Below are positions 3,936 through 31,900 of a stretch of 34,392 nt of DNA, one piece after another. Location: contig WELB01000018.1 of assembly GCA_009602725.1 (NCBI GenBank), forward strand, positions 516,768-551,159, given 5' to 3'. The stretch is from Spirogloea muscicola. Its lineage: Eukaryota > Streptophyta > Zygnematophyceae > Spirogloeales > Spirogloeaceae. The notes below the pieces were generated by a model that saw only the letters and a program-made list of their open reading frames with translations, did not search any database and had not been told where the DNA came from. The stretch's first letter is position 1. Each line of letters starts with the position of its first letter. The translations under genes were made by a program, and so were the position numbers.

Positions 3936-4358
3936 ACCTTCCTGTGGGACCAGATCGAGCAGGAAGGCTGCAGGAGGTGCAACGCAGGTGTCCGGCCGGT
4001 GAAGGCCAGGCACCGGAATAGGCCTGGCTCGTGCTCGTCACGCTGCCAGTACTGCTGCCGCAACGGCGCTGGAGGCCGTGTGCCGCTTTTGGGTGGGAGT
4101 TGACGACGGCGCTCTCGGACTACGCCGCTTGAGGCCTTCGCGTGCAGCCGTGATGGGTGAGCGGGGCGGCAGAGCAGGTGGTGTGAGGAATGGCGGCAGC
4201 AGTGCTCGGACGCCCCCCTGAGAGCCTCAGCCTTGGAAGCCCGAGCTTGTGGCCTTTGCGGATCCGCCATGGCCGACTCTGGGCGCCCAGGCTGGGAGCC
4301 GAGGCCCGATCTCAGATAGCAGCAGCAGGCCACATGCTCTGACGGGCGCGGACCAGCC
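3936..4358 (+). promoter_or_regulatory. Probable promoter/5' leader of the MASE1 histidine kinase gene
   Basis: This interval lies between the polypurine tract and the first kinase ATG. It is GC-rich, has no recognisable domain in any frame, and holds no clear TATA box. The assignment as leader rests on position only. Confidence 0.35.
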
Positions 4359-7300
4359 ATGGAGATTGGCAACGAGGCCAGAAAGGGGCCCGACGGTGTC
4401 GATGGCGGGCCGAACGTGGATGCAGAGGTGCTGTCGTCCCGGCGGAGCTGCTGGGCGCGCCAGGGCTGGGTGTTGGACGACTCCCCGTGGGCTGCGCCAA
4501 GCTGGGTGCGCTTTGGCGGCCTCAACGTGGCGCTCGCCATCGTCATTGTGCTTACTGGTAAGTCCTTTCGACCAGTCAGAAGCCCGCCGCTCCTGCCAGC
4601 GAGCGCATTGGCCCCTGCCTAACCAAGTCTGCACCTTCGAGTCCGACGGCAGTGCCACAGCATAAGTACTGCCATGCTGTTGGTGCTGACTCTGCGGCAG
4701 ATTTCCCGAGCTCAGTCCCTACACCTATTGCTATCCCCAAGTGCAGGCCGCCTTGCGTTCCTGGCGCAGCGCGGGGACCAGCCGGTGACGCTGTGGGCGC
4801 CCTCCGGCTTTACCCTGGCCGCCTTCATGCTCCTTGGTATGTGCCTGGCCCAGCACTTCCTCCTATTGCCGCCATTGCCAATGTGCTCCAGAAGTGTTGA
4901 TGAGACGGAGAAGTAATAGACAGGTGTGAAGAGCCGGCTGATCAGAGTGCGCTGCGTGCACCAAGAGCAGGCTATGGGCTGCTACCTGGTGTCGTGGTGG
5001 GCATTATGACAATCACCATTTGGTGGACGCACACCCCTCCACGGCACTCAGCGCTGGGCGGCACCATCGCCAGCTGCCTGGCGGTCACCCTGGGCAGCGC
5101 AATCGAGGTCAATTGCTGCGCTGAACGAGCTTGTTAGAGACTCTCACTCTGACAATGTCGTACTCAGAGCACGCAGGTGTCGTCGCTGACTAATCACTCT
5201 GATGTGGACATCGCAACTACTTCGTCATCATTGCAGGCCACTTTGGCACTGGCACTCCTGCGGCGCTGGAACAAGGGGCCACCTTTTCGCAGGTATTGCT
5301 ACAATGTGTTGCTGCCTCTGGTGTGGGCCCATGCCTCTTCTCTGCGGATTGCAAGGGATGCTGAGCCATCAAGCATATCTCTCTTTCATGATTGCCAGCG
5401 TCACGTGGGCGTTCCGATTCTTCGTAATATCTGCCATCGCAACCGTTGTCGGGGCTGCGATTTCTGTTACAGTCGTGGAGGCAGTATTGACGCCCATCAC
5501 TGTGCACACTTGGCTCGAGGTGACGACTTTCAATGCCGCAACCTTGGCTCTCACTCAGGCATTCACAAATAAATCCAATCTTACCAGCGTTGTTAGCCCT
5601 GTTCTGGTTATTCATTCTTTTGGTGTAGTCAGTGAAGGCGAGTGAAGATCTCAGCCTTAGGGTGTGTGGCATGACTGCCGACCTTTTGACGAGGGCGTGC
5701 ATATCGACATCCTTCTGGAAGCTCAGGACGCCAAGAGAATTCTCAAAGGGATTTCTTGTACATTGTAGTAGACAGTTAGGTAATACATGCATGTACACAT
5801 TTGTGTTTCTCAGTTCCTGCTGGCATGGTGGTGGAGCGAGCTGGCTGGCATCTTCGTACTCACGCCCTGCATCCTATTTTGGTGCATCTCACCTTACTCC
5901 AAGGACTGGAGGCCCTGCCCAGGTGCCATGCTGAGAAGGCCCCACATGCCCTCTATCGCCAGTGTTTGAGTATCAAGTCACTGCAATCTAGGTGCTATTG
6001 CTGTTGCAGCATAGATAGGACCAGAAGCAAACTCAGGTGGGATCTACATTCTGACCAGCTCCGGCTCCTACATGACGCAGGGTGGTGGTGGAAGGCCCTG
6101 GAGGCAGCTGCAGTGCTTGCGCTCCTTTTCATCCTCACCTTCTTCGTGTTTGGCGGCCTTGTCGGCGGGGCAGTCCCAGCTGCGGAGCGCCGGCCATACC
6201 TCATCCTCCCTGTCCTCATCTGGATCTCGTTCCGCTTCGACCAGCGAATCTCCACGTCCGCCAGCGTGCTCATGAGCGTCATCGCTGTCTTTGGCTCCGT
6301 CAAACTGCCCAATGGGACCTTCGCGTACATGAGCATCTTTGAGCGGGGTCTGCAAGTACAGGTCCGTAGGCATTCGGCCAACTGATTGCTCTGCTGCAAG
6401 CTGTTGCGCCATCTATCCTGACATTTCCACTTACATGAAGGTTTGATGTGGTTCTGCAGCTATTCTGCTTAATTATCAGCGGCATGGTAATTCTAATCAG
6501 TGGTGCCATTCGGGAAAAGGACGCGCTGACAGAGGAGCTGTGGAAGGCCACACTGCATTTGCAGCACAGCAAGAAGGAAGCTGAGGCCGCCAACAAGGCC
6601 AAGTCCGAGTTCCTTGCAAACATGAGCCACGAAATCAGGTCCAGAGATTCCCATTGGCTGCCTGGGTCGTGTGTTCATCTCCTGTGACTCGATAGTTGTG
6701 AATTATCACACTTCGCATGTCCATGCATCATCATGGACCAATATGCAGCAGCATTACTGGCTTAGATGATATTGACTGGCAGGAGGTGCTGGCATGCAGG
6801 ACGCCCATACATGGCATCCTGGGCTCGGCAGCACTGGCGCTGGACACAGTGCTGAGCAAGGAGCAGCGGGAGTATCTGGAAACAGTTCGCCACTCAGCTA
6901 CATGCCTCTGCAGCATTGTGGATGACATCCTGGACGTGAGCAAGATTGAGGCTGGGAAGCTACAATTCGAGTGCGTCCCATTCAGGTGAGTCATTGGAAT
7001 GCTTCCCCCAGTCTGCAGATGCGATGGAGCTCGAGCCTCTCCGGGTCCTTCTGTCGCTGAGCCCATGTTTGCTGGTCATTGAATGTGATTTGACGGTCCT
7101 TGTATGCACCTTGATCGGCAGCCTCACGGAGATGCTGGGCACGACAACCAAAGCGCTGCAGGCGCGGGCGGCGCAGAAGGGTTTGGCAATCAAGTGGTCA
7201 CTGAGCACCAGCCTGATTGCAGCCAGCGGCAGTAGTGATGGCCCGACCCTCATAGGCGATCCCAACCGCCTGCGCCAGTGCCTGCTCAACCTCATTAGCA

Positions 7301-9745
7301 ATGCCATCAAGTTCACAGCCAAGGGCGAGATCACGCTATCTGTCGAGCTGGGGGACGAGGCCGGCGTGACTGAAGGCGGCAATGCAAGTCATGGCTTGGT
7401 GCAACGGCAACGCCACGGTGGCAGGCACCGCCGCAGCTCGTCGCGGAGCAGTGCCGACTTTCTGGTGAGCTCATGGCCTACGTGGTAGTCAGACTAACAA
7501 ACAGGATACAGCAGACAACGCTTCAGCAGAGTCCCCATCCAATGCGCTCAGCAGTATTTCGGATGCTATGACAGGTGCTCCTCAACACTTGCCGAAAGGG
7601 CTTTCCTGTGGACGCCAAGTCTGCCAGGGCGCGAGCGATGCAGATTGACAGTAACAGCGGTGAGCACAGCGGCGGTGAGGAGTCGCCGTCAATGGAGGCC
7701 ATGAGCTTCTGGCGTGGTGCGCTGAGGCCGTCGCTGGACCTGCCCGGCTGGCTGTGTGCCAACTCGGTGGCGGCATCCACAGAGAGGGGCCGACGCGCGA
7801 GGCGGATGTCGGAGTCAGCAGTCATGGGTACGAGGCAAACTGAGAGCTCTGCCAGCAGCGGCAGGCCCATGGCCCGTGCAGCCAACAGGCTACAGCCCAA
7901 TGTTCATCCTGTACCGCCCGCCACGCCGCGCGACATCTTCGGCCAGCCCGCCAGCCTGAGCAAGAAGCTGCCGGCATCACCAGGGCACGTGGCTATTGAT
8001 GTGGTCGGCAGCGGCGAAGGCTGCGAGGAGGCTGACGGCACGGCTAGCGCTGCCATCGATGTCGGGCAGGATGATGGCCAGGAGATGCATATCAGGTTCT
8101 CTGTGGCAGACACTGGCATCGGCATCCCGCAGGAGCAGATGGAGCGCATCTTCACAGCGTTCACACAGGCGGACTCATCTACTTCGCGGCTCTATGGCGG
8201 CACCGGCCTCGGCCTCACCATCACCTCCAGGTATGCAGCAGATCTTACCAGCTACATTCCGGGAGGCTGCCACATCTGTCTGGCAATTGGTCCAAGCGCA
8301 GACAGCTGATCGGCCCAGCACGCTGTCGTGCCTCTTGGGCAGCCTTCCTGCTATGAGCAAGCTATTAGTAAGGGTCGTTCATGGTGTTACATTCGTGTTC
8401 GTGATATGGTGGTGGTCGTGGTCGTGGCTCCTGACAATGCAGGCTGGTGAGCATGATGGGCGGCCACATTTGGGTGCACAGCGAGGTTGGCAAGGGCAGC
8501 ACTTTCTACTTCACAGCACGCCTCCGACGCGCGTCAGCTGACGAGAATGCGAAGCGACAGCCCCTCTCCATGTCAATTCCGCTGGATGTGTCCTTCTTAT
8601 CGCCGCTGATGCGCACCGCGTCCAACACCTCGACTTCGTCTACACCACGCTCCAAGGACTGCAGCACTGGCTGCGCTGGTGGCGGCCGACCATCAGTGGG
8701 TTGCTGCCAGGACGCCGAGGCCGGCCATGGCTCCCGAGATCAAAGCCTGGGCGCAGCCTGCTCTGCATGCCAAGGCGTGAGCCCCAGCGCGTCGCGGCCG
8801 CCCACCGGCGCTGATGCTGCCGTCTCCTGTCAACCGAAGCCGCCGGGCCTCTCCTTGCACGGGACCAGTGGCACACCGAATGTGCCGCTGGCCATTGCCA
8901 GCAACACCAAAGAGCTGCCGCCGACAGCATCAGGCAGGAGGCTGTCCATCCTGGTCGCCGATGACAACGTCGTGAACCAGCGGGTGGCCTGCAGGTGCGT
9001 GCTGTCTTCACGCGGCGCTGGCTGGCTGTCATAACTTGCCGCCGGACCTCGTCGGCTGCCACTGACAGTGCTGCTCGGGGTGCGGCGCACGCTTACATCG
9101 CCAGGCAGCTGCAGAAATGCGGGCACCAGGTGGCGGTTGTGGGCGACGGGCAGCAGGTGCTGGACGTGCTGCGCGGGGGCCGCGAGCGGCACCAGCAATT
9201 CGACGTCATCCTCATGGACATACAGGTGGGACGGCATGGACAGCTTCGAGACCAGCGTCTAGGCTTCCATCGACCATGGCGGCGTCGACGTCTCCAGGAC
9301 TAACGCCCCTTTTGCTTCTGGCAATGGCGGCGATTATGCAGATGCCAGTGCTGGACGGCCTGCAGGCGACGGCGCGCATCCGGGAGCGCGAGGCGGTGCA
9401 GCCGGCGGGAGGCCGGCGCGTGTGCATCATCGGCCTCACCGCGCACGCCATGCAGGCCTACCACGACAAGTGCCTCGAGGTGAAGGGCGTCTGACCAGCG
9501 GCAGCGCCAGTGGCGACGGCCGTCGGGGGCTGATCCTCGCCGCTGATCAGGCTCTGCATGGAGACTGTGGCGCTCAACGCATGGCTGGCTCTGGCGTGCA
9601 GGCGGGCATGGACGGGTACGCCAGCAAGCCGTTCCAGATCGAGGCGCTGCTGGCGACGATCGAGAACACGCTGGCGCGCCTGGCGTCGAGCGACGCCGTC
9701 GCCAAGGGCAAGGAGCCGCCCGCCGCGACGGCCGCACCGTCATGA
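4359..9745 (+). CDS. MASE1-domain hybrid sensor histidine kinase (15 exons)
   Basis: Exons 4359-4557, 4747-4836, 4971-5107, 5237-5292, 5399-5519, 5814-5922, 6081-6355, 6460-6638, 6800-6985, 7122-7464, 7575-8230, 8443-8994, 9105-9225, 9342-9479, 9602-9745 join in phase to 1101 residues. Residues ~55-345 are a multi-pass membrane region with MASE1 hallmarks: [36 protein letters not shown] and [15 protein letters not shown]. The kinase core follows: phospho-acceptor H386 in [11 protein letters not shown]-box around N511 ([12 protein letters not shown]), G1 at D744 (ADTGIGIP) and G2 GGTGLGL. The receiver has acidic pair D957/D958, phospho-acceptor D1006 (ILMDI), T1041 and K1063, all as expected. 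It probably autophosphorylates on His at a cell membrane and passes phosphate to its own Asp; the MASE1 ligand is unknown. Oddities: a long Ser/Arg/Gly-rich insertion between N and G1 boxes. The start ATG is the first in frame; splice edges of exons 10-11 are the least certain. Confidence 0.88.
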
Positions 9746-9919: not shown

Positions 9920-9972
9920 CTAAACCCTGAACCCCCATATACCCTAAACCTAAAACCCTAATCCCTAAACTT
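9920..9972 (-). repeat. Interstitial degenerate telomere-like tract
   Basis: The + strand reads CCTAAACCCTGAACCCCC, then ACCCTAAACC, AAACCCTAATC and CCTAAAC, about six imperfect CCCTAAA units (TTTAGGG on the minus strand), the plant and chlorophyte telomere repeat. A second small patch on the opposite strand is GGGTTTAGGTTGGGTTT at about 10176-10192. Confidence 0.8.
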
Positions 9973-10974: not shown

Positions 10975-11365
10975 ACAGCTCTTCCAATGTAAGGCAGTGG
11001 CTGTGAGAGGCCAGCCCCAAGTAGGAACAAGGACGTGGTCTCTTGATCACTTTAGGACACGGTCTGAATGGAATCTGGAAGGAGAGGACCGCAATCTCCT
11101 ATCTCCACATTTATAGAAGTCCTCGCTATTGATGCCTGCTCCTAGCGACCACTGTGGACGACCATACCAGCCGCATCCCCGCACAGAAGAAGAAAATGTG
11201 GCACTCCCAATAGGGGCAAGGGCTGTGAAAAGCCATCCCGAAAGAAATTGACATAGATTCGAAGGGGCCAGATAGAGAGAAGGCGCGCGGGGCGCATGAA
11301 TTGAAAGGGAGGCCAATTCAAGCCAATACATTGTTCAGGCAGAGTCGAGTGCAGAAAGGGGCCAG
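10975..11365 (-). repeat. Minus-strand retroelement 3' UTR units with hairpins
   Basis: Minus-strand hairpins lie at 10999-11017 (GGCTG/CAGCC) and 11220-11239 (one stem mismatch), with CCCGAAAGAAATTGAC beside the second as in other copies. The block ends with a minus-strand copy of CTGCCTGAACAATGTATTGG and its downstream GCATGAA-containing motif (11283-11345). Confidence 0.6.
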
Positions 11366-21191: not shown

Positions 21192-24100
21192 ATGTTCGAG
21201 ACGCCCGAGTTCAAGCGGCAGGCGCGGCGGGCGGCTGGCAGGGCCCGGGAGCAGGGCCTCCTGCGCGCCGCCGTGCAGGCCGCCGCGTCAGGGGCTGCGC
21301 TCGTGGGCAAGCGGCGGAGCCTGCGGGGCGCCGCCTTCTGCGGCCTCGCGGCGCTCCTGGGCGCCCTGCTCGTCGCCAAGGTCGCGTTCGGCCTGCTGTC
21401 GTGGGCCAGCTCCGATGCCAAGGTCTGTGACCGCCGCTCCTCTTGCTGCAGGCATCGATTGATGGGTGACGCAATTGAATAAGCTTTGCATGCATTCCAG
21501 ATTGGCGCTTGGCGGCGCTCTCTTGTGGGTGCACAATAAGCTGCAGAAGCTGCACAACCTGCAGCTGCATTACAAGCATGTAGCTGCAGAGCGGCTGAGA
21601 TTGGCTCGCTTGCTCGGGTCTCCATTGCCAGGCGGATAGCTCCTTCGGAGGCGGTAATCGCCATGGCCGACCGGAAGACGGCGAGCTGCATGTCTTGAGG
21701 CCTGGGGACGAGCAGCTGGAGGGCGCCCTGGGTTTGGTCAAGCGGGCCCCCCTCTCACTGCGAGCCCAGGTATCGTGGAGCTCCGGGCGTGCAATCTAGC
21801 AGCAGAGTCCAGCAACAGATATGTGCATGTTGTGCGCCAGCCTTATCGGTGTACGTGCAAGCCTTAACGGCAAAATGACCTTGACTATCCAAGGCAGGTG
21901 CAGATGGTACTTTTATGTCCACTTGTCACGATCCTGGCCAGCTGAAGTCCTGAGTGAAGTATACATTGCCATTATGCAATACATTGATGACTTGCCGGTT
22001 GCAGGCCAGAATGCTGACAAAAGTCTCACTGTGTCCCCGCTCCGGCTCCTGGTAGCAGTCTGCTGTGGAGGCCACGCTGTGGGCCAAGTCGCCCAAAGCG
22101 GCGAGCTACCGTCAGTGCATTGAGCTTGCAAAGGGCTCCGCAGGTGAGCTGCTGCCAGCCAGGGCCTTTGGTCATGTATGGTAGCCTCCACCATCCATCA
22201 CATTACCAGTGACAAGCAGGAGACTGGTCATTCATGAGTGGAAGTGGTCCTGTGTCTGTCATGCTTGGGCTCTCACAACTATTTGAGTGAAATCAGTGCT
22301 GAGTGCTTGCTAAAGACAGTCTTATTGTAATTCATCATGCTGCCAAGCGTAGCTGTCTTGGCTCCATTTTGAATGGCCTGCTAAGAAGTAGAAGTGGGTC
22401 GTCAGCTTCTGCTTTGCTGCAATGAGCTAACAGCAAAGCCCCCTACTCAGGCTTGGTGGTGACATTGGAGCAATTCAGACCTGAGTCATCTGCTTTGTGC
22501 TTGGCTGTGGTTGCAGTGCCCAATCCTGATACAACCAGTGGGTATTTGATGGTCACCGCCAACGGCGGCCTCAACCAAATGCGTGCTGCCGTGAGTCTCT
22601 CGTACACCCCACAGTGTGTAGCTCACATGCTGACTGATTACATGAGCAAACACTCAAGTGTTGGAATAGGATCAATGGCTTATTGGCTGGAGCACACTCG
22701 CAGATCTGTGACATGGTCGCTGTGGCCCGCCTCATGAATGCAACGCTGGTGCTGCCTCTTCTTGACCACACATCCTTTTGGAGTGACCCAAGGTAAGGAT
22801 CAAGGTCTTGTTCTCTTTTAGATGCACGGTTTCCTCTCTCGTGCTTTGCTTGAGCTTACACTTGGTGTGCAGCCCCCTTTAAGTGAGCATCATGCTGTGC
22901 AAAATTTGCTTGCAGTGTGTTCGAGGACATCTTTGATGTCGACCACTTTATGGAGGTCTTGAAGGATGACGTCACGGTTGTCAGCGCGCTGCCGCCCGAG
23001 CTGGATGTCAAGCCAGTCGAGAAACAGCCCGTGTCTTGGTCCAAGGTGACACCTCCGCCTAGATGCAGTTATACGAAGTGCCAAGTGTCATAGCAACAGG
23101 CAATGTGGGCTTACATTGCTCATTCGACATGAAATGTGTGTTAAAGATCTGCAGGATATGACCTGTGGCAGATTGTTCACTCTTATGAAACTTTTAGGAT
23201 TGCGGGTGCCTGTTTGCAACCTCAATCTCTCTCAACCTGGTACCGTGGCCAGGGTTCTTACTACAAGGGCGAGATGCTGAAGCTCATGAAGCGGCACCAA
23301 GTCATCCACTTCCAACTTACTGATGGGCGCCTGGCCAACAATCACCTGCCCGACCAGATCCAGAAGCTCCGTTGCCGCGCCAACTACCGGGCGCTGAAGT
23401 ACACGGCGGAGATTGAGGCAGTTGCTGAAGCGCTTGTCCAACTACTCAAACAGCACGGGCCTTACATTGCACTCCACCTCCGGTCAGTCTTGATTGTGCC
23501 TACTTACTGCAGCAACAATGTTATCTATGGCTTCTGTGTGGCATCCTGGAAACCTTCAAGTGACTGATGTCCTGGAGCACTGATCTACCAGATACGAGAA
23601 GGATATGCTGGCCTTCACCGGCTGCACCCATGGTCTTTCAGATCGGGAAGCGGAGGAACTGAGAGTGATGAGGGTGGAGAATGATAGGTGGGAATATGCC
23701 TCTCTTGCTGGGAAGTCTTCTTTCATCACTAGCTTATGCACTCTCTTTTGCACTAGCTCTTGCCTGCACAGTGTATTGGCTTGATCTGGCCTCCCTTTCA
23801 TGTCATGCGCACCTCGCGCCTTCTTGACTTCATCAGGATTCATTAGCTGGGCATCTTAAACCATTGTTGTGAATTTAGATGCTAATGAATTTACCCCTTG
23901 ACACCAATTGAGTGGCAGGTGGAAGGAGAAAGACATTGACCCGAAGGTGAAGCGTGCTGCTGGTGAGTGCCTGCTGACGCCATACGAGACCGCCAAGCTC
24001 CTGGAGGCGCTGGGGTTCCCCAACACCACCACAGTGTACATAGCAGCCGGGGAGATCTTTGGACACGGTAGCCTGGAGGCAAGCCCCGTGACTGCTGCCT

Positions 24101-25784: not shown

Positions 25785-27145
25785 AGATGAGGCTCCTGAC
25801 GCACAACATGCTGACGTGCAACGCGCGCGGCGTGACCAAGGGCTTCCCGCTGCGCATCGAGGCGGCGCGGCTGGAGGCGCGCGACGCCGACTTCAACCCC
25901 GCCTTCCTGCGCCACATGTACCCCAAGCTGGACTGGAAGGCCTTTCACGACGCCGCCGTCTCGGTATGACTCCATGGCTCTCGCAGCTCCGCCAACTCCA
26001 GACGGTGCCGCCTGCTTGGCGAGCTGCCCGGACCAGCCTCCTTTGCGAGCTCTCACAGTAGCTGGAGGATCTGGACCTCCGGTGATCGAGCATCTGCGTA
26101 GCCTTTTGCTACTGCGCTACCTCTGCAGCAGCGCCTCGTTTGCGTCTGGCTGCCTGGGTTATGCGAAGCCCAGGTGGTACCTCATAGGGGTTTAAGTATT
26201 GGTGGGGCGGCTTAGCCTTGCAAGCAGCACAAGTCGCCTGCCATAGACGTATGCCAGCGGCGCTCATCATGTCCCTCGACAAAGCCCGTGCTCAGTCCTC
26301 CCATCCCTTCCCTCCTGTTGCCGAACTCTCAAGTTGCAGAAAGTAGCAAACCCACAATGCACAAGTGCCTTGAGATGCCAGCGGCGCTCATCGAGTCCCC
26401 CAACAGAGCTAGTCAAGCTCTGCCTTTCACTATCCCCCCCCCTTTCCCCCTCCCTTCTCTCTGGTCGCCGCTACCTCAGTTGCAGAAAGTAGCAAGCGCA
26501 CGAGGGCCGAGGCCCAGGCTCTCCCTGCTTCTGAGCTTGGTCGTTTGGAGTGGCGGGTGCTAAGCTGCAGGCCACCCATCAGCTCACGACTCTCTGTCAT
26601 CTCACTTGATACTTCACCTACGCACAAGTCCGCGTGCTTGCTTTCCCTGAGCTGCCTCTCTTCCTTCAACATTTCTCGTGTGCTGCTCCTGTGCAGCTCG
26701 GGCTGGAGGGGCTCCCGGAGCAGGTGGAGCCGGCCATGCTAGAGGACGAGACATTCCTGCGCACTTTCCACCACGCGCTGCTGGAGGTGAGCAGTGTCAC
26801 GTGGCCACACTGCTGACTGAAATATCAATCTATGACCCCTGATTCAAACAGGCACATTCACGGTCTGGAGGGGCTGTCATACACTCTAGCTTGGCATGCG
26901 CCTACTTGAGTTGAAAGACTACACAATTCATGCCACGCCGTCTATGCCTTTTGCTGGTCAAAGTCATCTTCAGCCACATCTTCAGTGTGTGAACTTGTCA
27001 CAGAAGGTTCTCTCTTCACATTACAGTGACAATCTGTTCTCAGGTGCACTTAGAAGAAGGCGTGTTGATATGCCCGGAGACTGGACGAAGATTTCCAGTC
27101 AGCAAAGGCATTCCTAATATGCTGCTTAATGAGGACGAGGTTTGA
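25784..27145 (+). CDS. TRM112: TRM112 homologue, methyltransferase activator subunit (3 exons)
   Basis: Exons 25784-25963, 26697-26786 and 27044-27145 join at phase 0 to 123 residues, the usual length of this family. It begins [16 protein letters not shown] and continues with [57 protein letters not shown] and [12 protein letters not shown], which is the TRM112 signature from end to end. TRM112 is a small partner that stabilises and activates several SAM-dependent methyltransferases acting on tRNA, rRNA and translation release factor, in cytosol and nucleus. The ATG is the one right after the GGC tract; upstream in-frame codons are open but are not needed by the family. Intron 1 (733 nt) contains a tandem duplication. 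The only oddity is the repeat-laden leader. Confidence 0.95.
26248..26500 (+). repeat. Diverged ~126-nt tandem duplication in TRM112 intron 1
   Basis: TGCCAGCGGCGCTCATCATG at 26251 recurs as TGCCAGCGGCGCTCATCGAG at 26377, and AGTTGCAGAAAGTAGCA at 26332 recurs at 26478. The intervening sequences align with changes, so one unit was duplicated within the intron. Confidence 0.7.
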
Positions 27146-28902: not shown

Positions 28903-31900
28903 ATGGCCGCGCGCTCGAGGCGGCCTCCGGCGGGCCATCCCTTGCGCGCCGCCGAGGAGCCGCCGCCGCCGGGCGCAGAGCTCAGTGGCGGCTCGCGACG
29001 GGGGCCTCGGCTTCCGCAGCGCCCACTTGGCGTGCCTTCTAAGGGCCTCGCCAAAGCGTCGTCGCCAGAGCCGGATGGGGCGGTGGCGTGCACGCAGCAC
29101 CCCGTCGCGTTGCAGCTCTGCTTGGTCCGCCTCCAGTCGGCGTACGACCTGGCGGCCACCGCCGGCGTCTGCCGCGCGTGGCGCGACGTGCTGCGGGACG
29201 ACGCCACTTGGAGCGTCGTGCTGCACAAGTGGTGGCCGGGCACAGGCAAGCACTGCTAAGCCGAGCTCGGGCCCCATGGTTGAGGTGCTTCGAGCTCAGA
29301 CGCTGCATCTCCAGTGCTCGGCTTCCCACTGGGGATGTGAAGTCTGTGATCTTCCGAGCCTGCCATGCCTCCTTGACTGTGGGCGTGGCCTTCTGGGCAC
29401 ACCTCACGCCGCCAGCCTTGGAGAGCGGGAGCAGCAGAGCCGCGTTCATCACAAGGTACCAGCAGGGCCGCGCCAGGATGCAGGAGGCTCGGCTGGCCCA
29501 GCTGGAGCAGTCTGTCACACTTGCAGCCTTTGGTGAGCCGGGGGCCGCGCACTACAGCTTGCATAGCAGCTGCCTCTCGAGAACACTAGCAATACCTTAA
29601 CGCAGGCCTTTGTTGATAGAGTCGCAAACTGCTATGCAGGTTCCATGTTGTATTTGACACGGGTCCCACTAACCTTGCCTCTTCCCTTCCTCGTCGGCCT
29701 ACATATTCAGTTCTGCATGTTGACCCAGGTCTGGTGTTGCCCTCGACAGGCAACAGGGGGCCGCTCATTAATGTGGAGGCCGCCGCCAATAATGCTCGCA
29801 AGCTGGGCCTGCGGTTTGAGGTTCACTTGCATAAGTGGAGGCAGCCCGTGTCCTCACCCCAGCAGTCACACGCAAGAGCACTCCTTCCAGCCTCTGCCGT
29901 GACCATCTTTCCCACATCTGTGTCGCTCCGCCTTCCTCCAGCCAGGCTCAGTGCCAACTTCACACTGAGGGGTCTTGCATCTCTTGAAGTTGTAGTCGTC
30001 AGCCCGGTGCTGATGGCGACAGAGGTCCTTATGAAGGTCAATGGGGAATCCATTGCCCAAGGCTTGCAGCCGAGTTGGCCAGACGCTCCTGGCAAGGCCC
30101 CTCTGAATTTCAGCTTTGCAAGGTTGTGGGAATACTCCTGTGGAACCATTGGCATCGATACCTCTAGCCCCTGCATGACCGGAGAAAGAGAAGCGGAGGG
30201 CGAAAGTAATAGTCAAGGGCGCGACTGGACAGACAACAGCATGGAGGATGACTTGTGGGCTCCGTCATCGTATCAGACGATGGGGCAAACAGGAGCACTG
30301 CGGGGCAGCATAGTCTTAGGCACCCTGCCGGAGAAGGATGCTGCCAGCAAAACATTGAGTGAGCAGGTGACAGGCTGGGATCCTGCTAAGAGGCCATCAA
30401 GGTTTCTGCTAGGCTGGATGCAAGTGGCATATATCTGTGTAGTCAAGTGCTTCTTCACAGTTGCTGCAGCTATGCTGATAATCTCTTTCACATGGCTTCA
30501 TTGATAAACCCTGGTATAAGAACGAAATATGTGACCCGCACCAGTACACTGATGACGTCAAGATCTTATATCCCCCAGATTGTTCTGCTGGTGGTCAACC
30601 TCAACTTGGAGCACATTGTACAAGTTCTAAGGGCGGGGTCCAGCGTACGGAGGAGGCTGGCTCCTTGCCCCAATGCTTCCATTCGATCCTGCTTAATTGT
30701 ATGTCCCCACACCTGCTGTTCTCTGTCCAGATATACCTCAGCACACTTGGCATCTTTGAAGTGAGGCCTCAGCATGTATGATGGTGGTCAGTGACAGCAC
30801 TTACATGAGACACAGGAAGTGAGAAAAGCAAGACTTGAAACGTGAACATTAAGGACTGCTCCTCCACTGTGCCATCTCGTCAAAGCTGAGGACTGAAGTT
30901 GGCTCCTACTCAGACCGTACACCTCCGGACTTTCAGCCAGATTTGGTGGCTTGGCTTCCACAAGTTGGTCAGATTGATGAGCCTTCTTACTTGAATGATT
31001 CTTAAGACCTTGAGCCCACAATTCCAAATTTGGCCTGAATCTTCTGTGTGCTCGTGAGATTGCAGCACTGCTGTCATTGTTCTGTTCGTGATAGTGGGTC
31101 ATGCCCTCTGAGAGACGATATTATATTTTGGTCATGACAATACTCCATGCCCTCTGAAAGACCTTGTTCATAAGATGAAGGGCTCGCTGCCAGTGATGTT
31201 AGGACGTCATGAAGTTTACTAGAGATGCAAGATGTAGCGACTTCTGATTTACATACAATATTGGTTGTATATGCTTGCAGGAGTCAAAGGCCAAGTGCTC
31301 ACAGGTACTCCCTAGCTCTCTAGACTGCTTACATTTAGCTCACAATCTGCTTCATGAATTGTTGCTCAGGAAGCTGCCTTCTTTGCTGAAGCTGATATTG
31401 TGTAGTCTAAGTCGAAGGCTGCACTTTGCTCTCAAGCTGATCATGTGTCATCTCAGTCATACTCAATCGTCATACATATTTCCACGCCTTGCTGGTGCTT
31501 GTGTCATGGCACACTCAACAGCGTACAGCAACTGAGCTAAATACACCTCCTTTCGACCAGCCTCTATGCCAGATCCTCATAGTGTCTGAGTTTTACGATG
31601 CTGCTGTACCTACTTGGACTTTGGCAGGTCAAGGAAGGCACTCTCAAATTACCCTGGCGGACAGAGGTTTTCTCTGGAGCAATCATAGGGGGGTGTATTA
31701 TCGACTGTATCATCTGGGACGTCTCTGGGCGAATTGCCTGGTCCTGTAGTCAGCCAGTGCGCATTCACCTATGCGAAGCCCCTATCGTACCATGCGCAAT
31801 GCTCCATGCCTTTTCAGTAGAACAGGTGGGTGCATGTCAATCTCTCTCTCTCTGCTTGTGTACCTCATTTATGATCACAACAGCCATTGTATACTTAATT

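Follow-up and report, generated by a model that had tools for sequence, protein, structure and literature searches.

What does a domain described as a bacterial sensor do in a gene of a green alga, and how did it come to stand there? The question is raised by a 34,392-nt stretch of Spirogloea muscicola DNA (GenBank assembly GCA_009602725.1, contig WELB01000018.1, positions 516,768 to 551,159 of the forward strand), called the window below and used throughout for coordinates. The gene in question spans 4359-9745 on the + strand. It encodes a hybrid histidine kinase of eukaryotic type, the sensor of which is a divergent membrane-associated sensor 1 (MASE1) domain. It is probably a nuclear gene coding for a membrane-bound hybrid kinase of the MASE1–HisKA–HATPase_c–receiver type, which would sense a small molecule and feed a His-Asp phosphorelay. 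A MASE1-bearing hybrid kinase in a eukaryote would add to the range of sensors so far known from algal phosphorelays.

Four domains are found in the protein by Pfam, all above their cut-offs: MASE1 (PF05231) at residues 58-345 (positions 5-292 of the 299-position profile, 82.4 bits versus a cut-off of 29.8, E-value 4e-23), HisKA at 378-443 (1.7e-19), HATPase_c (1e-28) in two stretches, of which the best is 727-814, and the receiver, Response_reg, at 955-1076 (2.9e-22). This is the set expected by the first-pass annotation, which had been made from the sequence letters alone and had placed a MASE1 sensor at the N-terminus, where a near-complete profile is indeed matched. In the NCBIfam collection, residues 57-356 match the sensor region of the kinase EspC at 3.4e-21, which is far below the full-length cut-off of that model. 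The hallmarks of a hybrid kinase are complete, with the histidine of HisKA (H388), the N box (N513), G1 box (D746), and G2 box of HATPase_c, and the DD, D, T, and K residues of the receiver (D959/D960, D1008, T1043, and K1065). The residues named earlier are all present, each two positions further on, the product being 1,103 and not 1,101 residues long. Kinase and phosphotransfer activities are thus predicted from sequence. The Pfam search gave five families at E ≤1, with no CHASE, PAS, LOV, GAF, or phytochrome domain among them; MASE1 is joined to HisKA by a linker with no recognised domain in it, and another linker, of about 140 residues, precedes the receiver.

The gene model was assembled by manual splicing at GT-AG sites and comprises 15 exons and 14 GT-AG introns of 98-294 bases, with phases agreeing at all joins. 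It begins with the ATG at 4359 and ends with the TGA at 9745, and its frame is closed upstream by an in-frame TAG at 4317-4319. The coordinates, the strand, and the motifs given by the first-pass annotation are correct, and the many introns, together with the kinase and receiver domains found, bear out its description of the gene as that of a eukaryotic hybrid histidine kinase. The exons, with the results of Pfam scans of single unspliced exons (2, 3, and 5-12), are as follows:

4359..4557, + strand: exon 1, a hydrophilic tail of about 48 residues at the N terminus, followed by the greater part of MASE1 helix 1
4747..4836, + strand: exon 2, [19 protein letters not shown]; MASE1 helix 2 (W83, P85, G87); alone without Pfam match
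4971..5107, + strand: exon 3, MASE1 helix 3, then the larger part of helix 4, with the GSAIE motif (S139, E142); alone without Pfam match
5237..5292, + strand: exon 4, last part of MASE1 helix 4; the codon test favours another frame
5399..5519, + strand: exon 5, MASE1 helices 5-6 and the beginning of 7; alone without MASE1 match
5814..5922, + strand: exon 6, [18 protein letters not shown]; MASE1 helix 7, with E210 replacing the usual D; alone matches MASE1 at 0.027
6081..6361, + strand: exon 7, MASE1 helices 8-9 and the beginning of 10 (W285, R289); alone matches MASE1 at 5e-5
6460..6638, + strand: exon 8, residues 332-390, completing MASE1 helix 10 and passing through a linker into HisKA, with H388; alone a weak HisKA match at 0.053
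6800..6985, + strand: exon 9, remainder of HisKA; alone matches HisKA at 2.4e-11
7122..7464, + strand: exon 10, start of HATPase_c with the N box (N513), then the beginning of a low-complexity insert; alone matches HATPase_c at 5.5e-6
7575..8230, + strand: exon 11, remainder of the insert, then the G1 (D746) and G2 boxes; alone matches HATPase_c at 7.9e-12
8443..8994, + strand: exon 12, end of HATPase_c, linker, and start of the receiver (D959/D960)
9105..9225, + strand: exon 13, receiver with the phospho-acceptor D1008
9342..9479, + strand: exon 14, receiver with T1043
9602..9745, + strand: exon 15, receiver with K1065, C terminus, and TGA stop

Since unspliced exons 6 and 7 match MASE1, in both cases under the cut-off score, the MASE1 match of the spliced product does not come from splicing alone. 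The joining of sensor and kinase depends on exon 8, in which, with no intron between them, the end of MASE1 is followed by the linker and by the part of HisKA that includes H388; its helix is hydrophobic and aligns with the last helix of MASE1, the MASE1 match reaching residue 345. Because exon 8 bridges both parts, the sensor and the kinase very likely belong to one gene with one predicted transcript. A leave-one-out codon test is supportive of the model, not decisive: the chosen frame is the best one in 14 of the 15 exons, exon 4 failing, and single frames of some introns score up to 0.32, level with exons. The usual polyadenylation signal in green algae is TGTAA. It is absent from the + strand between the stop codon and position 10988, so the 3′ end of the gene is unconfirmed.

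MASE1 has been described from bacteria as a sensor, as also stated by the first-pass annotation (PMC6510439, PMC3718329; here and below, what is said of a paper refers to the portions of it that were available). It has ten membrane helices (PMC6510439), and in YfgF it responds to redox conditions (PMC3718329); no MASE1 ligand is named in the available portions of these two papers. The domain is widespread in bacteria. Some MASE1 proteins of algae may have entries in protein databases, and a partial search of the literature yielded no paper on a eukaryotic or algal one. For comparison with the algal domain, 53 bacterial MASE1 members were aligned (alignments A3 and A4, which leave out L058 and L083 from the 55 bacterial loci used in the tree discussed below). 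All ten helices of the model of one of them, L060, map by alignment onto the window protein, in which MASE1 occupies approximately residues 50-350, and 17 of the 27 positions that are invariant or nearly so in the bacterial members are kept. The sensor is a divergent MASE1, to judge by the identities to bacterial matches and the tree given below.

A hint as to what such a domain might bind comes from the structures predicted for two bacterial MASE1 domains, L060 and L008, modelled with 53-row alignments at a mean predicted local distance difference test score (pLDDT) of 93.6 and 94.7, respectively. In a Foldseek comparison with solved structures neither model has a match at E 0.001. Among the best 50 of 396 matches for L060 and the best 50 of 374 for L008, all but five have template modelling (TM) scores <0.25 both ways, and the five exceptions are S components of energy-coupling factor (ECF) transporters, the substrate-binding subunits of these vitamin transporters, ranked 26th to 42nd by E-value. 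The model of L060 resembles RibU (5kbw chains A and B, and 5kc0) with a TM score of 0.62-0.67 by target, a probability of 0.96-0.98, and E 0.6-0.9, as well as the S component 5edl (TM 0.45, probability 0.75), while that of L008 resembles BioY (4dve; TM 0.56, probability 0.80, E 1.7). Independently of the models, the Pfam profile of QueT, which we take to be an S-component family, matches four of the 53 bacterial MASE1 domains (L023 at 2e-5 over positions 2-136 of 141 and with 25.4 bits, L069 at 0.0035, L019 at 0.0036, and L020 at 0.0085) and also L083, from outside the 53-row alignment, at 0.0029. Together, the models and the profile matches are suggestive of an S-component-like fold in the front half of bacterial MASE1. 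A partial search of the literature gave no relevant paper linking MASE1 to S components, QueT, or energy-coupling factor. It may be that a Pfam clan already unites MASE1 with the S components.

From these data we infer the membrane topology of the protein, the binding of a ligand, the phosphorelay, and its partners as follows. The ten-helix MASE1 would lie in the membrane and sense by binding a small molecule, which is proposed because of the likeness of the front half of bacterial MASE1 to ECF S components. The change in the sensor would shift the HisKA helix and so switch autophosphorylation of H388, a direct mode of switching being favoured since no recognised domain separates MASE1 from HisKA. 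The phosphate would then pass from H388 to D1008 of the receiver and onward, along the route taken in other hybrid kinases of eukaryotes, to a separate histidine phosphotransfer (HPt) protein and a response regulator.

Several observations weigh against this proposal of a small-molecule-sensing kinase. Ten near-invariant positions of MASE1 are changed in the window protein (Y to I63, P to A84, A to T89, A to I108, N to T112, N to S139, G to S183, G to S209, D to E210, and T to S310). The likeness to S components concerns bacterial relatives only, has Foldseek E-values of 0.6-1.7, and ranks below spurious matches. The matches of MASE1 domains to the QueT profile, that of L083 included, all lie under the 33.7-bit cut-off of that family. 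A profile-profile comparison of the 53 domains with four QueT proteins is collinear over 173 columns and weak (P 0.022, probability 2%), and the window protein itself matches neither QueT nor any other S-component family of Pfam at E ≤1. As regards the kinase, a low-complexity insert of about 180-190 residues (7340-8100) splits HATPase_c between the N box and the G1 box, and the codon test gives it a weak coding signal (-0.002 in the chosen frame versus -0.164 and -0.251 in the other two); the splicing at this insert and the activity of the domain are therefore putative. Finally, exon 8 taken alone gives no MASE1 match, and the assignment of its helix as the last one of MASE1 is that of the spliced alignment. 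Apart from this, among 251 genomes from the phylum to which genome G008 belongs, four carry QueT-family proteins (L096-L099), one of which, L097, adjoins a frame judged by eye to be EcfT-like.

A further step would be to regard MASE1 as the S component of a vitamin transporter turned receptor, its transport function having been lost; with a remodelled pocket (N112T, N139S, and D210E), it would serve the green alga to detect a small molecule, vitamin-like or otherwise, via a His-Asp phosphorelay. In this full form the idea is on the whole unlikely to be right. It is worth mentioning that the transporter-like fold provides a testable idea of the MASE1 ligand, which, if true, applies to bacterial MASE1 proteins as well.

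The MASE1 part could instead be mainly a membrane anchor and a platform for protein docking, the signal arriving via a partner, as with the GTPase RdcA on DgcE of E. coli. This alternative is possible, even if we incline against it. The MASE1 region of DgcE is required for activity and turnover of the protein and contacts RdcA (PMC6510439), and three of the ten changes at near-invariant positions, N112T, N139S, and D210E, affect polar residues; lying in the membrane part, these changed residues suggest that the domain either binds another ligand or serves for docking. However, the mapping of all ten helices and the retention of 17 of the 27 near-invariant positions go beyond what would be expected of a mere anchor.

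The origin of the small-molecule-sensing kinase proposed here was approached through searches for relatives of its MASE1 region. Plasmids yielded one weak match (25.7%) and phages none at E 0.01; 16 pattern-matching stretches in viral contigs gave no confirmed case, and a viral origin was rejected. A scan of prokaryote genomes led to 195 confirmed loci, 80 of which were kept, the best segment reaching 34% over part of the domain. Eight of the nine genomes reached through loci have a match, at 33% at best, as do 46 of 396 genomes of one phylum (that of genome G006), in which the best values are 33-34% over most of MASE1 and 36% for one 135-residue fragment. A closer bacterial donor, above 34% over most of the domain, was thus not found in these 396 genomes. 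A sequence search of MASE1 against solved structures gave nothing convincing, with one match at 0.085. The MASE1 tree has 60 rows, made up of four plasmid loci, the window protein, and 55 of the 80 bacterial loci, the other 25 being 24 from Bradyrhizobium and an alphaproteobacterial bin, L071. In it the window protein forms the longest end branch (2.16, the median being 0.52), and no neighbour of it is supported. Cyanobacteria are hardly sampled, a plasmid diguanylate cyclase (L003) being in the first alignment and absent from the tree. The first-pass annotation had considered MASE1 as either acquired or retained by the algal lineage, and the tree, in which its placement lacks support, favours neither.

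Nor do the kinase and the receiver settle the origin, because their matches are both bacterial and eukaryotic: both parts match solved histidine-kinase domains of either kind, and the 18 solved receiver matches include SLN1, CKI1, and 'histidine kinase 5', which we take to be eukaryotic, as well as RcsC, RpfC, and DivK, presumably bacterial. Identity of the kinase and receiver to hybrid kinases of bacteria is about 44-50% among the best 15 matches from each of two plasmid searches, and one of 4,711 records in a plasmid search falls in the 60-80% identity band. One history compatible with the eukaryotic receivers is shuffling within eukaryotes, in which a MASE1 gene became fused to a resident eukaryotic hybrid kinase; the sensor is also more diverged than the kinase and receiver. 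This history is tenable, if rather doubtful, as the bacterial receivers stand among the same solved matches, a receiver from a bacterial plasmid matches at 112 bits and 49%, and sensors commonly evolve faster than kinases.

Recent horizontal transfer of the whole MASE1 hybrid kinase from a bacterium to the alga would agree with the identity of the kinase and receiver to bacterial ones among the matches listed, and with the domain order of bacterial relatives. In ten of them, hand-picked from the 55 and mostly short, with little room for extra domains, the order is the same in four, lacks the receiver in four, and includes GAF in one and PAS in another between the sensor and the kinase. Such a recent transfer is very unlikely in view of the fourteen introns, the ceiling of 33-34% for bacterial matches over most of MASE1, and the long, unplaced branch in the tree; an older transfer, or inheritance, is possible.

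The surroundings of the kinase gene contain several other features. Degenerate CCCTAAA-type telomere-like repeats lie just downstream of it, at 9920-9972. At least 13 kb downstream of the gene are found an exon of a GDP-fucose protein O-fucosyltransferase (O-FucT; 23145-23564, 6.7e-21), the first exon of a TRM112-like methyltransferase subunit (25787-25966, best 9.1e-14 to solved TRM112-like chains), and a weak F-box-like match (29128-29214, 2.6e-4, under the curated cut-off). Twenty open frames scanned elsewhere in the window gave nothing credible in Pfam beyond O-FucT and the sub-threshold F-box, and no tRNAs and no Rfam families were found in the window. Together with the introns, the TRM112-like, O-FucT, and sub-threshold F-box matches point to eukaryotic DNA, and the G+C content, the shortness of the introns, and the CCCTAAA-type repeats suggest a green alga. 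An artefact, i.e., bacterial contamination of the assembly or two genes wrongly joined in the model, is extremely unlikely: the model was spliced by hand from sequence evidence and exon 8 alone lacks a MASE1 match, but seven phase-matched GT-AG introns lie inside MASE1, for which reason bacterial contamination was rejected, exon 8 spans the junction of sensor and kinase, and two of the downstream genes, TRM112-like and O-fucosyltransferase, look eukaryotic.

The kinase of the window may be compared with four groups of known proteins. For plants and green algae, kinases of the CHASE, PAS, and LOV types are named (PMC6137987, PMC10338860). Like the hybrid kinases among them, the CHASE cytokinin receptors, LOV-HK, and the PAS-containing PHK, the window kinase should hand its signal on to HPt proteins and response regulators (PMC10338860, PMC6137987); it differs from them in having MASE1 as the sensor in place of a CHASE, PAS, LOV, GAF, or phytochrome domain. 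E. coli DgcE and Salmonella YfgF carry an N-terminal MASE1 as the window protein does, whereas their other domains are enzymes of cyclic di-GMP (c-di-GMP) and not a kinase (PMC6510439, PMC3718329). The ECF S components RibU and BioY show a likeness of fold to the bacterial MASE1 models, and QueT a likeness of profile to some bacterial MASE1 domains, in each case with weak statistics; MASE1 is longer than they are, with ten helices, and has a signalling output. Bacterial PAS-free MASE1 hybrid kinases, such as the acidobacterial L060, L039 of Chloroflexi, L025 of Bradyrhizobium, and L061 of Acetobacteraceae, have the MASE1–HisKA–HATPase_c–Response_reg order of the window protein, with no further Pfam domain in between. 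They are encoded by intronless open frames of 653-739 amino acids, in contrast to the 14 introns and 1,103 amino acids of the algal kinase, which is further set apart by the low-complexity insert in its ATPase domain, the linker of about 140 residues before its receiver, and the altered polar residues of its sensor.

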